Shown piece by piece: positions 4,961 through 29,387 of a stretch of DNA of 33,680 bases. Position numbers and translations under genes: made by a program. The notes under the pieces are model-generated. The model did no database searches, had not been told where the DNA came from, and was given only the letters and a program-made list of their open reading frames with translations. Each line of letters starts with the position of its first letter. Positions within the stretch are counted from its first letter, which is position 1. Origin of the DNA: a virus; IMG/VR virus record IMGVR_UViG_3300008113_000188, positions 1-33,680 of that record; one strand, 5' to 3'.

Positions 4961-7596
4961 ATACAAACCAATATTCCCTTAAGCCAGGCGAAATTCGTAT
5001 TGATTTCATTCCTGTTGACTGGCCTCTCACCCCACTTGGTGCCAACAAGGATCCGTATGTTGTTGGCTGGCAAGCCAAGCCATTTAGTGTTGGTGAAATT
5101 GAAGAGGAGCTAACAACTGGAGACTGTAAAGCAATTGGTTTGCTTGGTGGTCCTGTCTACAACCATCCCTACGGTTTGATCTGGGTTGATATTGATGGCC
5201 CCAGCGTTTACAAACTTGTAGAGGAACTGGCGGGTGTTTCATTTAAAGAAGCATTACCACCCACGCTGACAGTCTTCAGTGGTAAAGAAGGTCGTGAGAG
5301 GCGGCTGTACAAAATAGATCGCGATTCTCACAAGCACATCATCCGTAATAAATACACATGGCATGGTGAAGAAAACAAAGAGAAACTAGAGATTCTTTGG
5401 AAGCGGCACCAGGGTGTTCTCATGGGTCTACACCCTGAGACTGATGGTTATTACACCGTTGAAGGACATGGTTTTGAATGGGCGCAAGACCTACCGCAAT
5501 TCCCTGCTTGGTTGTTGACTTGCATCATCAATAAAAATGTCAAGCACGGGAAGCCAGCCACAGAAACAACACGTATGGCTGGTGCCAACTTCGTGATCCA
5601 GGCGCAGATTGGACTTGATCGTGACATCCAACTCGCCAAGGAAGCAACGTGGGGTATGCCTCCAGAGGCTGCAGATGATTACGACATCTGGATCACGGTC
5701 GGACAATCACTCCACTCATTAGACGAATCATTGCTTGATGAGTGGGATAACTGGTCAAAACAGTCGAGTAAATACAAGGACGGTGAATGTCACCGTCGCT
5801 GGCTTTCGTTTAGTCGTGGTGGCGGCAGAACGCTTGGGTCATTGGTTCATATTGCTCAGGAGAATGGCTGGCAACCTTCTCAGGAACACAAGGTAATGAC
5901 TGTTGATGATGCGACACTTGATCATGTGTCTGCATTGGTTGAAGAAATTGAAAACGATTTAGGACTGACTGAGATGGCACTGGCTGAAAAACCGCGCACC
6001 CTTCACACAACTGATACATGGAATACGCAGTCGCGGCCGCAGGCTGAGCGCAAAAAAAACAAGGAAGACAAAGAAGATAAGAAACGTTCCAGAAACCCCG
6101 CATCGAGTGAGATCACCGACAATGTGCTCAACATGTATACAGGTGATCTACGGTACAGTCAACCCCATGGTCAGTTTTTCTTATACAACAAAACCAATGG
6201 TTTGTGGGAGCCACTGACCAAAGTTGAAATGATGGGTGACCTCCGCAACAAACTTAAATATCAAGATTTGCCAGCGGGGTTTACGCACAATCTCATGAAA
6301 GATATATACGCTCAACTTCAATCGGAAGTTCCATTTGAAGATTGGTGTGATGGCTCTGAGTACCTTCTGTTTACTAATGGTGTATTAGATGTCAAAGCAA
6401 AAGAACTTCTGGCATTCAACCGCAATTACTACCTCATACAACAAATGCCATACGAGTATGATCCTTCCGCTACATGTGAAGAGATCGTCACTTGGCTAAC
6501 GCACACCCAACATGCAAGCTGGAATCGAACTCAAGTCCTGCGCGCCTGGCTGCGTGCCACACTTCTGGGTCGTTATGAGATCCAGAAGTTTGTAGAGATT
6601 GTGGGCCCTGGTAAATCAGGTAAATCTACATACGCCAACCTTGCTGTTGCACTGGTAGGTAAACAGAATACTTACTCCACTGACTTTGAAAACCTGGAGA
6701 AGAACAGGTTTGAAGCTGCTAGTTACATGGGTAAAAAGCTGTTGCTCTTCCAGGATGCTGACCGTTGGGGCGGCTCCGTTTCCAAGCTGAAAGCAATCAC
6801 GGGTAATGATTGGATTCGTTCTGAACGTAAGTATCAAACTGAAAGTCAAGATCCATTTCAGTACCATGGGGTGGTAATGATCACAGCTAATGAAGCAATT
6901 CAATCAACTGATTACACTTCTGGCCTTGCGCGTCGCCGTCTTACTATCCCGTTCGACCGTCCATTTGAAGGCGGCCAAGCTGAACAAAAGGAACTGATTA
7001 AGTTTGATGCCAAGGGCAATCCGCAGGGTGTTTTTGCACCGTTGCTGTCGGGGTTGGTGAACTGGCTGTTGGATATGACAGAAGATGACATGCGCTCTTA
7101 CTTGATGGAGACCAGTAAGAATGTCTCCTTCTTCCAGAAGTATGAGAAGACGCAATCACTTCGTTCTAACCCACTGTTGGATTGGATGGACCACAAGATT
7201 ATTTTTGATCCAGGTGTGTCAACACCCGTTGGTTTTTGTAAGGCACAACCTGCTGGTGGCTCTGGTTACTTTATGAATTGGACGGAATGGTTGTACGCCA
7301 GCTATGCCGAATTCTGTAAAAGCAGTAATGTCAACACCATGTCTCGTGGCCGTTTCGAACCACTGTTCCTTGATATCTGTAAGCACCAGCTCAAACTAAA
7401 TGTCTACGGCATTAAAACCAGTCGTGGCATGCGTATCGTTAATGCTGCAGTGCGTGAGTCTAATAAGACTAAATATGATAACTATCCATCCATTGTAGAA
7501 GTTGCTGCTAAACCAGAAGAATATGAACAACTCTACGGAGCTGTGCTAACTGCAACTACTGATGCCATAATGGATGAAAATGCTATCGATATGTGA
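4957..7596 (+). CDS. Primase-polymerase / D5-type SF3 helicase fusion
   Basis: An 879-residue replication protein with three parts. Residues 1-190 resemble an archaeo-eukaryotic prim-pol domain, with catalytic acids in WVDIDG (D78, D80) and a GLHPETDGYY segment near 157-166. Residues about 225-305 look like PriCT (WGMPPEAADDYDIWITVG and SFSRGGGRTLGSL). After a lysine-rich linker (366-379) come a D5-N region and an SF3 helicase: Walker A GPGKSGKST (550-558), Walker B LLLFQDAD (595-602), sensor MITANE (N645) and LARRR as arginine finger. It would unwind the origin and make primers. It overlaps the genes on both sides by 4 nt. Confidence 0.9.
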   Translation: MNTNQYSLKPGEIRIDFIPVDWPLTPLGANKDPYVVGWQAKPFSVGEIEEELTTGDCKAIGLLGGPVYNHPYGLIWVDIDGPSVYKLVEELAGVSFKEALPPTLTVFSGKEGRERRLYKIDRDSHKHIIRNKYTWHGEENKEKLEILWKRHQGVLMGLHPETDGYYTVEGHGFEWAQDLPQFPAWLLTCIINKNVKHGKPATETTRMAGANFVIQAQIGLDRDIQLAKEATWGMPPEAADDYDIWITVGQSLHSLDESLLDEWDNWSKQSSKYKDGECHRRWLSFSRGGGRTLGSLVHIAQENGWQPSQEHKVMTVDDATLDHVSALVEEIENDLGLTEMALAEKPRTLHTTDTWNTQSRPQAERKKNKEDKEDKKRSRNPASSEITDNVLNMYTGDLRYSQPHGQFFLYNKTNGLWEPLTKVEMMGDLRNKLKYQDLPAGFTHNLMKDIYAQLQSEVPFEDWCDGSEYLLFTNGVLDVKAKELLAFNRNYYLIQQMPYEYDPSATCEEIVTWLTHTQHASWNRTQVLRAWLRATLLGRYEIQKFVEIVGPGKSGKSTYANLAVALVGKQNTYSTDFENLEKNRFEAASYMGKKLLLFQDADRWGGSVSKLKAITGNDWIRSERKYQTESQDPFQYHGVVMITANEAIQSTDYTSGLARRRLTIPFDRPFEGGQAEQKELIKFDAKGNPQGVFAPLLSGLVNWLLDMTEDDMRSYLMETSKNVSFFQKYEKTQSLRSNPLLDWMDHKIIFDPGVSTPVGFCKAQPAGGSGYFMNWTEWLYASYAEFCKSSNVNTMSRGRFEPLFLDICKHQLKLNVYGIKTSRGMRIVNAAVRESNKTKYDNYPSIVEVAAKPEEYEQLYGAVLTATTDAIMDENAIDM

Positions 7597-7946
7597 GCAA
7601 TGGTCGGCATCTAATCCTTGATCTCTATGACTGCGATCATGACATCCTGGATGATTACGATGAACTACAGCGTTTGCTAGAAGCTTCGCTTGTTATGGCT
7701 AATGCAACAATTCTTCGTATCTTTGGAGAAAAGTTCCAGCCGCAAGGAGTGACGCTTCTGGCATTACTGGCAGAATCTCACGCATCTATTCATACCTGGC
7801 CCGAGATTGGGTACTGTGCTATCGACTTATATACCTGTGGAGATAAAACACAAACTCATAGAGCTGCTGAATTCTTGAAGAAAAAATTACAAGCAAAAAC
7901 AACAGAGCAAAAAGAGATCGTTCGATCAGTAACTCCGCAAAATTAG
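7593..7946 (+). CDS. speD: S-adenosylmethionine decarboxylase (proenzyme)
   Basis: This 117-residue protein matches short prokaryotic AdoMet decarboxylases. The self-cleavage site is LLAESHASIHTWPE, with Ser62 expected to become the pyruvoyl group, His67 as the processing residue, and Cys82 in DLYTCGD as the proton donor. The enzyme makes decarboxylated SAM, the aminopropyl donor for spermidine. It starts with GTG and overlaps the primase-helicase stop by 4 nt (GTGA), so it is produced together with the replication machinery. speD is a known auxiliary metabolic gene in cyanophages; spermidine may help pack or replicate phage DNA. No spermidine synthase gene is in the window, so a host enzyme would be needed. 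Confidence 0.9.
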   Translation: MSNGRHLILDLYDCDHDILDDYDELQRLLEASLVMANATILRIFGEKFQPQGVTLLALLAESHASIHTWPEIGYCAIDLYTCGDKTQTHRAAEFLKKKLQAKTTEQKEIVRSVTPQN

Positions 7947-18764: not shown

Positions 18765-19106
18765 ATGCATTCCGCTGCCGGGTTTCTAGATTCTTTTGTA
18801 CAAGATGAAATTGATTGTCGTTGTCTCATGGAAGACAGCTTTGGCGCACCGTTAGACAATGCAGAAAACGATGTGCCGCTGTACGATATGTATAATCGCG
18901 GGTTAGTTGCATGCGAACAAGGACTGGAGAGGAATCCACTGAATCTAGAGGGGGCACGGCCCGGAATGACGGGTTACATTCCTTCGATGGAGCAGGGCTT
19001 ACAGATGGGGGCGTCACCGAAGCCCAGGGCATTAGTGCTGGACCTGGAGGGTCCCAACGAGGGGATGCTGGAACAATCACGCAAACGTCGTGGTTTGACT
19101 CGGTAG
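18765..19106 (+). CDS. Hypothetical acidic protein, 113 aa
   Basis: The ATG at 18765 gives MHSAAGFLDSFVQDEIDCRC and an acidic helix-rich first half. The second half is proline-glycine-rich and ends in a basic RKRRGLTR tail. A GTG three bases earlier is the only alternative start. It ends 11 nt before the ATG of the DUF3310 gene, so the two are probably co-transcribed. From 18911 on, another frame is also open, and that frame becomes the DUF3310 protein. I judge this one to be the coding frame there because the other is low-complexity. Confidence 0.5.
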   Translation: MHSAAGFLDSFVQDEIDCRCLMEDSFGAPLDNAENDVPLYDMYNRGLVACEQGLERNPLNLEGARPGMTGYIPSMEQGLQMGASPKPRALVLDLEGPNEGMLEQSRKRRGLTR

Positions 19107-19117
19107 AACCAGTGCCA

Positions 19118-19435
19118 ATGCCGTTTTTCAAACCGGTAGAAGAAGATTCCGGTTGCAAGGACGGTGTTTGTCCGGTACCCTGGCTAACAAAAGAAGAGGC
19201 CCCTGTGCTCCAGGAAGATGTGGTTAATCATCCATCGCACTACACAGATGGAAGCATTGAATGCATCGAAGCAATTGAAGCGGCTTTAACCACTGAAGAA
19301 TTCCGTGGTTACTGCAAAGGAAATTGCATAAAGTATATTTGGCGTGAGTCGCATAAAGGCGGGACAGAATCACTCAAAAAAGCACAGTGGTACCTCAACC
19401 GCCTTATTGATTTAGATGAGATTCAAAAAGGTTGA
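19118..19435 (+). CDS. DUF3310 protein (T7 gp1.7-like nucleotide kinase family)
   Basis: The core NHPSHYTDGSIECIEAIEA, then GYCKGNCIKYIWRESHKGGTESLKKAQWYLNRL, is the diagnostic DUF3310 pattern, found in T7 gp1.7 and many phage proteins linked to nucleotide metabolism. The ATG at 19118 gives 105 residues with a short N-terminal CKDGVCPVPW segment. The same frame is open back to 18911, but that stretch is Gly/Thr/Ser-rich and overlaps the preceding gene. It lies near dcd, which fits a role in nucleotide supply. Its end overlaps the convergent NblA-like gene by 13 nt. Confidence 0.8.
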   Translation: MPFFKPVEEDSGCKDGVCPVPWLTKEEAPVLQEDVVNHPSHYTDGSIECIEAIEAALTTEEFRGYCKGNCIKYIWRESHKGGTESLKKAQWYLNRLIDLDEIQKG

Positions 19436-19725
19436 AGCTCATCTTCATCTTCGTCCTCGTCGTCGTCAATACAGGCGGCGGCGAGTTCCGCTAACTCAAT
19501 TTCTGTTGGGATATCAAAATCAATGGAGATGTTCTCATCTTCCATCAAAGATTTAATTGCGTACCATTCCATCAGCCGCTGGTGGTACAGATTGAGGAGT
19601 GCGCAGTAAAGTTCCTCCCATGTCATCTCTTGCGCAGAAAGTTCTGCCTTACGCATTGAGAACTGCAGTTCTAATGGAAGTTCAAATTCCCTTGGCTCTA
19701 CTGAACGCTCCATTCCGCTCTGCAT
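19423..19725 (-). CDS. nblA: NblA-like phycobilisome degradation protein
   Basis: Residues about 15-62 (ELPLELQFSMRKAELSAQEM, then TWEELYCALLNLYHQRLMEWYAIKSLM) align without gaps to the NblA consensus as I remember it: LSLEQEF-LR, an LSLEQA-like helix start, LLVELY-Q and a terminal helix. NblA is a small helical adaptor that brings phycobilisome proteins to the Clp protease. Phage copies are known in freshwater and some marine cyanophages and would free amino acids or alter light harvesting. The protein is longer than usual (100 against about 60 residues), with a C-terminal acidic run (DDDEDEDEDE). No HMM search was possible, so this remains a strong resemblance. Confidence 0.6.
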   Translation of the reverse strand: MQSGMERSVEPREFELPLELQFSMRKAELSAQEMTWEELYCALLNLYHQRLMEWYAIKSLMEDENISIDFDIPTEIELAELAAACIDDDEDEDEDELQPF

Positions 19726-19749: not shown

Positions 19750-20409
19750 CTAGCCGCTAAATACAAGATCTGCGTCATCGTGGCTGAAATCAGACCAGGG
19801 GTTTTCGTCAATACAAAAATCGTTGGCAAATTGCGACAGGATATAAGGACTGATGCTTTCTTCCAACTGTCTGATGGCACGTACTTCGTGTGGCGCTGCG
19901 GTGTAATTGCGGAATGCCGTCAGCAAAATTTCGGTTGAGGACCAGGGATTAGCATCAATTTCTTGGAGGAACAAGCTAATTTCTTCGCGGCGACGGTCCA
20001 GAAGACCGCCAACAACCCTGTGTTCTGCGTTAAATATCCAACGTCCCATTTCTTCAGTTACATTACAAAAATCTTCGTGTTCAATTGCATCGATAACATG
20101 GCTGTAAAGGAAAGATTCCCAGCCGATGGAATGAACAAAAGAGATCAATGCTTGCCTCATGGAAACATCTAATCCCAAATTAAGTTTTAAGAGTTGAGTG
20201 TCAATGACGCTGACTTCGTGAAACAAATACTCCAGTGCTTTTTGTTTACTGCAACACTGTCCTTTTTTAACGGGAGAACCATCGGGATAGAATTGGCTTC
20301 CATACCCGATGGTATAAGGTTCTGCACCAGTGGTCGGATCTGCGTAAGCCTTCTCGTTAAATCCTTCGTATTTACGAATGATGTTGATAGCTGCAGAAAA
20401 ATCCGACAT
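19750..20409 (-). CDS. GH24 phage lysozyme (T4-type)
   Basis: From the ATG at 20409 the protein begins MSDFSAAINIIRKYEGFNEK. The catalytic E15 in KYEGF is followed by D24 in AYADP and T33 in PYTIGYG, the E-D-T triad of T4-type lysozymes, with a few extra residues between D and T. GWESFLYSHV and RWIFNAEHRVVGGLLDRRREE match the family later region. It cuts peptidoglycan glycan strands. There is no signal peptide or SAR segment. An acidic C-terminal extension of about 60 residues is extra to the catalytic core. A TTG at 20433 could add 8 residues but lies within a hairpin. Confidence 0.85.
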   Translation of the reverse strand: MSDFSAAINIIRKYEGFNEKAYADPTTGAEPYTIGYGSQFYPDGSPVKKGQCCSKQKALEYLFHEVSVIDTQLLKLNLGLDVSMRQALISFVHSIGWESFLYSHVIDAIEHEDFCNVTEEMGRWIFNAEHRVVGGLLDRRREEISLFLQEIDANPWSSTEILLTAFRNYTAAPHEVRAIRQLEESISPYILSQFANDFCIDENPWSDFSHDDADLVFSG

Positions 20410-20431
20410 GGAAGTAACTGTAATTACTTCC
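20410..20431 (-). promoter_or_regulatory. Perfect 8-bp hairpin directly before the lysozyme ATG
   Basis: ggaagtaa (20410-20417) and ttacttcc (20424-20431) are perfect inverted copies around 6 nt, immediately upstream of the lysozyme start codon. Read as RNA, the 3' arm touches the ATG. It may control translation of the lysis gene or be an operator site. Confidence 0.45.
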
Positions 20432-20444
20432 AATCATACACAAT

Positions 20445-26252: not shown

Positions 26253-29387
<3,135 letters not shown>

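Follow-up and report, generated by a model that had tools for sequence, protein, structure and literature searches.

The S-EIV1 lineage of cyanophages carries a small gene whose product very probably shares ancestry with NblA and which, in the two main clades of its family, ends in the same Pro-Phe tip as the SSB of these phages. We studied this gene in a viral DNA stretch of 33,680 nucleotides (IMG/VR record IMGVR_UViG_3300008113_000188), hereafter the window. It occupies positions 19423–19725 on the minus strand as an open reading frame of 100 amino acids (aa); translation may in fact begin at M5 (19713), where most relatives start, which would give 96 aa. Its assignment draws on the ORF call, the Pfam NblA match and 47 distinct close relatives (80 distinct proteins overall). 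Our best explanation, to which we give about an even chance of being right as a whole, is that the protein would be a distant NblA-superfamily adaptor for ClpC, with the phycobilisome as its most likely cargo and the SSB-like tip as a tether.

The original prediction described a gap-free resemblance to NblA over about 48 residues. Residues 15–61 of the window protein aligned without gaps to positions 1–47 of the 50-position Pfam NblA profile (PF04485), with E = 4.4e-4, or 8e-6 when the same match is scored for the single 33.7-kb record. The resemblance thus holds over 47 residues and exceeds chance, but at 21.1 bits the window protein taken alone lies below the curated cut-off of 25 bits. The profile search proposed as a check gave a clearer answer for the family than for this marginal member: 28 of 29 aligned family proteins matched PF04485, the best with E = 2.8e-6. 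Ten of 18 related phage records hold a copy above the curated cut-off; in one of them (G003) that copy is a second, different NblA, and the tailed copy exceeds the cut-off in nine. The runner-up Pfam family for the window protein, DUF4030, reached E = 0.0034, below its own cut-off, and was treated as a chance or compositional match. A PHROGs search with the window protein returned no match, and neither did Pfam for SSB (PF00436), whose OB-fold domain is absent.

Comparisons of profiles pointed the same way. When a profile of the 29 family members was searched against 177,635 PDB sequences, Anabaena NblA ranked first (E = 8.7e-6), followed by Synechococcus elongatus NblA (2.3e-4); this profile includes one bridging sequence (L083) that had been recovered with S. 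elongatus NblA. Without the bridge, Anabaena NblA still ranked first (E = 0.0016), and S. elongatus NblA (3CS5) fell to E = 0.31. Using hhalign, with the bridge and the tail left out and a small host alignment of seven sequences, the family core scored 41.6 against host NblA, where 200 column shuffles reached no more than 18.5. Its score with the L083-type phage family was 47.7 (shuffle maximum 19.3); host NblA and the L083-type family scored 42.6 against each other. The three families agree gap-free and in register. Searches of the phage collection by tblastn with Anabaena NblA and with an L083-type protein gave no match because the sequences are too distant. Taken together, we consider it very probable that the window family is homologous to NblA.

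An AlphaFold2 monomer model of the window protein (mean pLDDT 75, pTM 0.45) placed helices at residues 18–32, 36–63 and 75–87, with a tail of low confidence. The first two helices, within the core defined by the Pfam span and the hhalign comparison with host NblA (residues 15–61, positions 19543–19683), correspond to the two helices of NblA. The third (19465–19503), predicted by the model and supported by conservation, is extra; it follows a conserved DIPT motif and is lacking in classic NblA. Foldseek searches of this short helical monomer against PDB and BFVD yielded no usable match, and none to NblA. For the proposed structural check, a two-helix NblA dimer, the outcome was therefore divided: the monomer model has a two-helix hairpin at the right places, but Foldseek did not link it to a known structure. 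Beyond the third helix, the acidic run at residues 87–96 (DDDEDEDEDE, 19438–19467), evident in the sequence and modeled with low confidence, is probably disordered; its length varies among relatives.

The two ends of the NblA core have fared differently. At the N terminus, residues 15–25 (ELPLELQFSMR, 19651–19683) are the counterpart, by column comparison, of the host consensus ELSLEQEFSLR, with E, L, L, E, F, S and R in common. This motif of NblA has been reported to bind ClpC (PMC4103541). As read from the alignment, the phage protein keeps the ClpC-binding region of NblA, and it would be expected to bind ClpC. For the opposite end, we take Leu-51 and Lys-53 of Anabaena NblA to be the residues needed for phycobiliprotein binding. 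The Leu-51 column is L or I in the phage family. The Lys-53 column, represented in the window protein by E62 (19540–19542), is basic in host NblA, whereas the family has A in 64 and E in 15 of 79 members. Nor does K or R occur at columns 48–52 in any of the 79. A basic residue is present in all seven host NblAs (K/R) and in all 35 L083-type phage proteins (K). On this alignment, the basic residue of the C-terminal phycobiliprotein-binding region has been lost in the phage family, which would speak against ordinary phycobilisome cargo.

A tail of some 35 residues foreign to classic NblA had been anticipated, and an added region plus acidic tail does extend beyond the NblA core. It had also been described as ending in a run of Asp and Glu, which is incorrect: after the acidic run D87–E96 the window protein continues with L97-Q98-P99-F100 and then the stop codon (LQPF, 19426–19437). 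In the two main clades, each of the 71 distinct proteins has an acidic tail closed by -PF. The stretch before -PF differs among them in length and composition, and the tip itself is encoded variably, with four codons used for Pro, two for Phe and seven pairings of them in all. Nine of the 80 distinct proteins (clade 3, L261 and L117) end otherwise, in FL, LL, AV, VG, VA or SV. The -PF tip is hence a trait of the two main clades and not of the whole family; clade 3 lacks it but has retained both the core and the region following the core.

The same tip is found on the separate SSB of this lineage (Pfam SSB, E = 1.9e-8), whose endings include DEPF, EEVPF, DDQPF and DENAPF. The possibility that -PF is simply common in these genomes was rejected: in S-EIV1 it ends two of 129 annotated proteins, the NblA-like protein (ELAPF) and the SSB (TDEPF), and among 743 distinct ORFs of at least 150 aa in the loci examined, it ends only 14 SSBs. 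Four further SSBs from main-clade genomes also end in -PF, and both tips occur in 18 of the 18 main-clade genomes in which an SSB was found. A passage of PMC5872125 describes the tip of Escherichia coli SSB, DDDIPF, as a highly conserved docking peptide. The simplest reading of these endings is that the phage tail imitates the C-terminal tip of SSB, and in SSB-binding proteins it would then dock at the pocket that normally receives the SSB tail. The original prediction had proposed the tail as a targeting signal for a Clp subunit or a phycobilisome component; what it resembles instead is the SSB tip borne by the same phages.

In the window, a convergent DUF3310 gene (18911–19435, plus strand; Pfam E = 3e-20) shares 13 bp with the 3' end of the NblA-like gene. 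We considered whether this overlap could force the -PF ending and rejected the idea, as the ending is also found with an overlap of 4 bp (the stop codon) or none, and its Pro and Phe codons vary. Strict co-variation of the two tips across all clades was not established: clade-3 NblA-like proteins lack -PF, and among clade-3 SSBs, L288 ends in DDNEHF and L287 runs past that point. L287 (L287/L217) is 97% identical to L288 and reads on for 17 residues, possibly through a frameshift or an assembly error. A more distant SSB (L289) ends in DDDNQPF, and no NblA-like gene was seen on its contig. Two cyanobacterial SSBs, both plasmid-borne, end in ANF and AQF and not in -PF.

The family has a cultured representative. 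Cyanophage S-EIV1 encodes a homologue annotated as hypothetical (AHV82245, in KJ410740; 61% identity over 70 residues) directly after its lysozyme gene. Relatives were present in at least 216 of 600 candidate IMG/VR stretches in one scan and at least 580 of 599 in another, and the family set comprises 80 distinct proteins from 176 loci. In the window, a phage lysozyme gene (19750–20433, minus strand; Pfam Phage_lysozyme, E = 1.5e-18) lies directly upstream on the same strand, across a 24-bp gap. A strict count places lysozyme ahead of the NblA-like gene at 155 of 164 loci. It is in position at the other nine too: at eight, a longer predicted N terminus overlaps it, and the ninth is the window locus, on the other strand. 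The DUF3310 gene is convergent in 151 of 158 loci. Because these neighbors are conserved, we infer that the NblA-like gene belongs to the syntenic genes of the S-EIV1 lineage and is not a sporadic metabolic gene. The idea that host cyanobacteria carry the gene found no support: a scan of genome contigs identified a single carrier, L117 (PAZU01000015.1), in a MAG labeled Euryarchaeota; its protein ends in ESV, and the contig is probably a stray, misbinned cyanophage contig.

Other features of the window and lineage were recorded. The product of positions 26253–29387 (minus strand) has 1044 aa and an extended collagen-like repeat (Pfam Collagen, E = 8e-74); it is likely to be a tail fiber. A speD gene (S-adenosylmethionine decarboxylase; 7593–7946, plus strand) directly follows the primase-helicase gene, as in S-EIV1, whose annotated speD is shorter. 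An 89-kb prophage of S. elongatus UTEX 3055 is most similar to S-EIV1 (PMC9239245), so a temperate laboratory relative of S-EIV1 may exist.

NblA proteins on phages are already known, and those of several other lineages have been reported to bleach cells (PMC9602691, summarizing earlier work). For the S-EIV1 group, a table in PMC5332604 lists hli and ptoX and no nblA, and we found no assignment of nblA to S-EIV1 in the papers accessible to us. Within that scope, the tailed, SSB-tipped variant appears to be undescribed. Our searches also turned up further NblA-like genes. ORFs of this kind, all unannotated, lie at the 3' end of an exonuclease gene in S-TIP37, S-RIP2, S-SBP1 and uvMED S28-C3 (L297, L299, L300, L301), and the S-CBP4 counterpart is annotated as hypothetical. 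The L083-type proteins (L083 and L124–L203), found using S. elongatus NblA, form a large family from uncultured phages; they are about 70 aa long, distantly NblA-like, and share the extension GID-A-I--F--ST. Finally, the 125-kb phage contig G003 holds both the tailed form and the second NblA (VELTLEQQFRVAAIERD...; L294, G003:C1:35500-38000, minus strand, from 1036 onwards; Pfam NblA, 30.6 bits), the latter near HNH and terminase-like genes; either two NblA types share one contig or the contig is chimeric.

How might such a protein act? During infection of phycobilisome-bearing cyanobacteria, this distant member of the NblA superfamily would serve as an adaptor for the host ClpC protease, presumably expressed late, together with the lysis gene. 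Its NblA-like core, with the N-terminal motif kept, would bind ClpC, and its -PF tip would dock in the SSB-tail pocket of SSB-binding proteins, tethering the adaptor to proteins of DNA replication or repair. The phycobilisome would be the single most likely cargo by descent, and this is the least certain step of the scheme. Phycobilisome breakdown by the NblA-like protein is plausible, and we place this cargo slightly ahead of a retargeted one because of the descent from NblA and because NblAs of other phage lineages bleach cells.

It is very unlikely that the protein is no NblA at all, and instead an unrelated helical hairpin with a chance resemblance and an SSB-like tail, acting as a decoy for SSB partners or as a replisome accessory factor. 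The window member's subthreshold Pfam match and the empty Foldseek searches would fit that view, but it would leave unexplained why three families align gap-free and in register beyond shuffle controls, why several members exceed the Pfam curated cut-off and why NblA ranks first among PDB sequences by profile. If the homology is accepted, the protein might be an ordinary phage NblA for phycobilisome breakdown, with an acidic tail for solubility or self-degradation and a -PF unrelated to SSB. Besides the homology itself, the other endings in nine of 80 members agree with this, as does the reported ability of Clp to co-degrade NblA (Baier 2014, cited in PMC7966870). We nevertheless find this version doubtful: -PF is invariant in the main clades despite a variable tail and synonymous variation at both codons, it coincides with the SSB ending inside the same genomes, and the basic residue is lost.

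A further alternative, tentative although less doubtful than an ordinary NblA, is that the adaptor has been retargeted: the ClpC half is kept, the cargo end is replaced, and the SSB-like tip captures SSB-binding host proteins, such as RecQ, RecO, RecJ, ExoI or PriA, for destruction by ClpCP, so that phage DNA is protected or replication redirected and phycobilisomes are not the cargo. Three features favor retargeting: the basic residue is lost, the tip resembles that of SSB, and the genomic position is fixed. The ClpC motif persists while K and R are absent from columns 48–52 in 79 of 79 proteins, and those residues are kept in host NblA, the L083-type family and the examined cyanopodovirus proteins; the tip is common only to the NblA-like protein and the phage's SSB; and the gene is a fixed neighbor of lysozyme. 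Against it stand the bleaching caused by NblAs of other phage lineages (PMC9602691), the retention of L or I at the Leu-51 column, and clade 3, which has no tip and has still kept the core and the region that follows. In its evolutionary form, the idea is that the S-EIV1 lineage reshaped an NblA-type ClpC adaptor to degrade repair and replication proteins that bind SSB, keeping the ClpC-docking half, giving up the antenna-binding residue and using a copy of the phage SSB's tip as bait; this seems to us possible but rather unlikely.

A phage-borne NblA is usually a metabolic story, in which the antenna is broken down and amino acids are freed. In the S-EIV1 lineage, known from hundreds of environmental sequences and one cultured phage, either the action of NblA would be tethered to DNA replication and repair, or an antenna adaptor would have been redirected to DNA-repair proteins. 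A protein whose sole annotation is "hypothetical" thereby gains a hypothesis of function, and both readings can be tested with one small gene and the cultured phage S-EIV1.

Among known systems, the closest is NblA/Ycf18 (PF04485; 1OJH, 3CS5), the cyanobacterial proteolysis adaptor. The phage family shares with it the length and register of the core without gaps, the motif ELxLExxFSxR, two predicted helices and L or I at the Leu-51 column; it differs in having A or E in place of the basic residue at the Lys-53 column, in the added DIPT, third helix, acidic tail and -PF tip, and in its overall length (about 96–108 aa, versus about 60). With the phage NblAs of Ma-LMM01, MaMV-DC, PaV-LD, marine cyanopodoviruses, S-TIM5 and S-SCSM1, it has in common an NblA core on a cyanophage genome. 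Unlike the tailed family, the cyanopodovirus proteins of S-TIP37, S-CBP4, S-RIP2 and S-SBP1 lack the acidic -PF tail, and their column 49 or 50 still holds a Lys, as read by eye against the host and family columns. The bacterial SSB C terminus (DDDIPF in E. coli) resembles the phage tail in its acidic run, hydrophobic residue or residues and terminal Pro-Phe; the NblA-like protein lacks the OB fold of SSB, and it usually places two residues (LQ, LS, LA or VT) between acid and -PF where SSB has one. Bacteriophage T7 gp2.5 and gp4 likewise have acidic C-terminal tails with a terminal Phe that dock on a replication partner. Those tails are similar in being acidic, disordered and Phe-terminated, but they are not homologous to the tail described here, which is borne by an adaptor-like fold.
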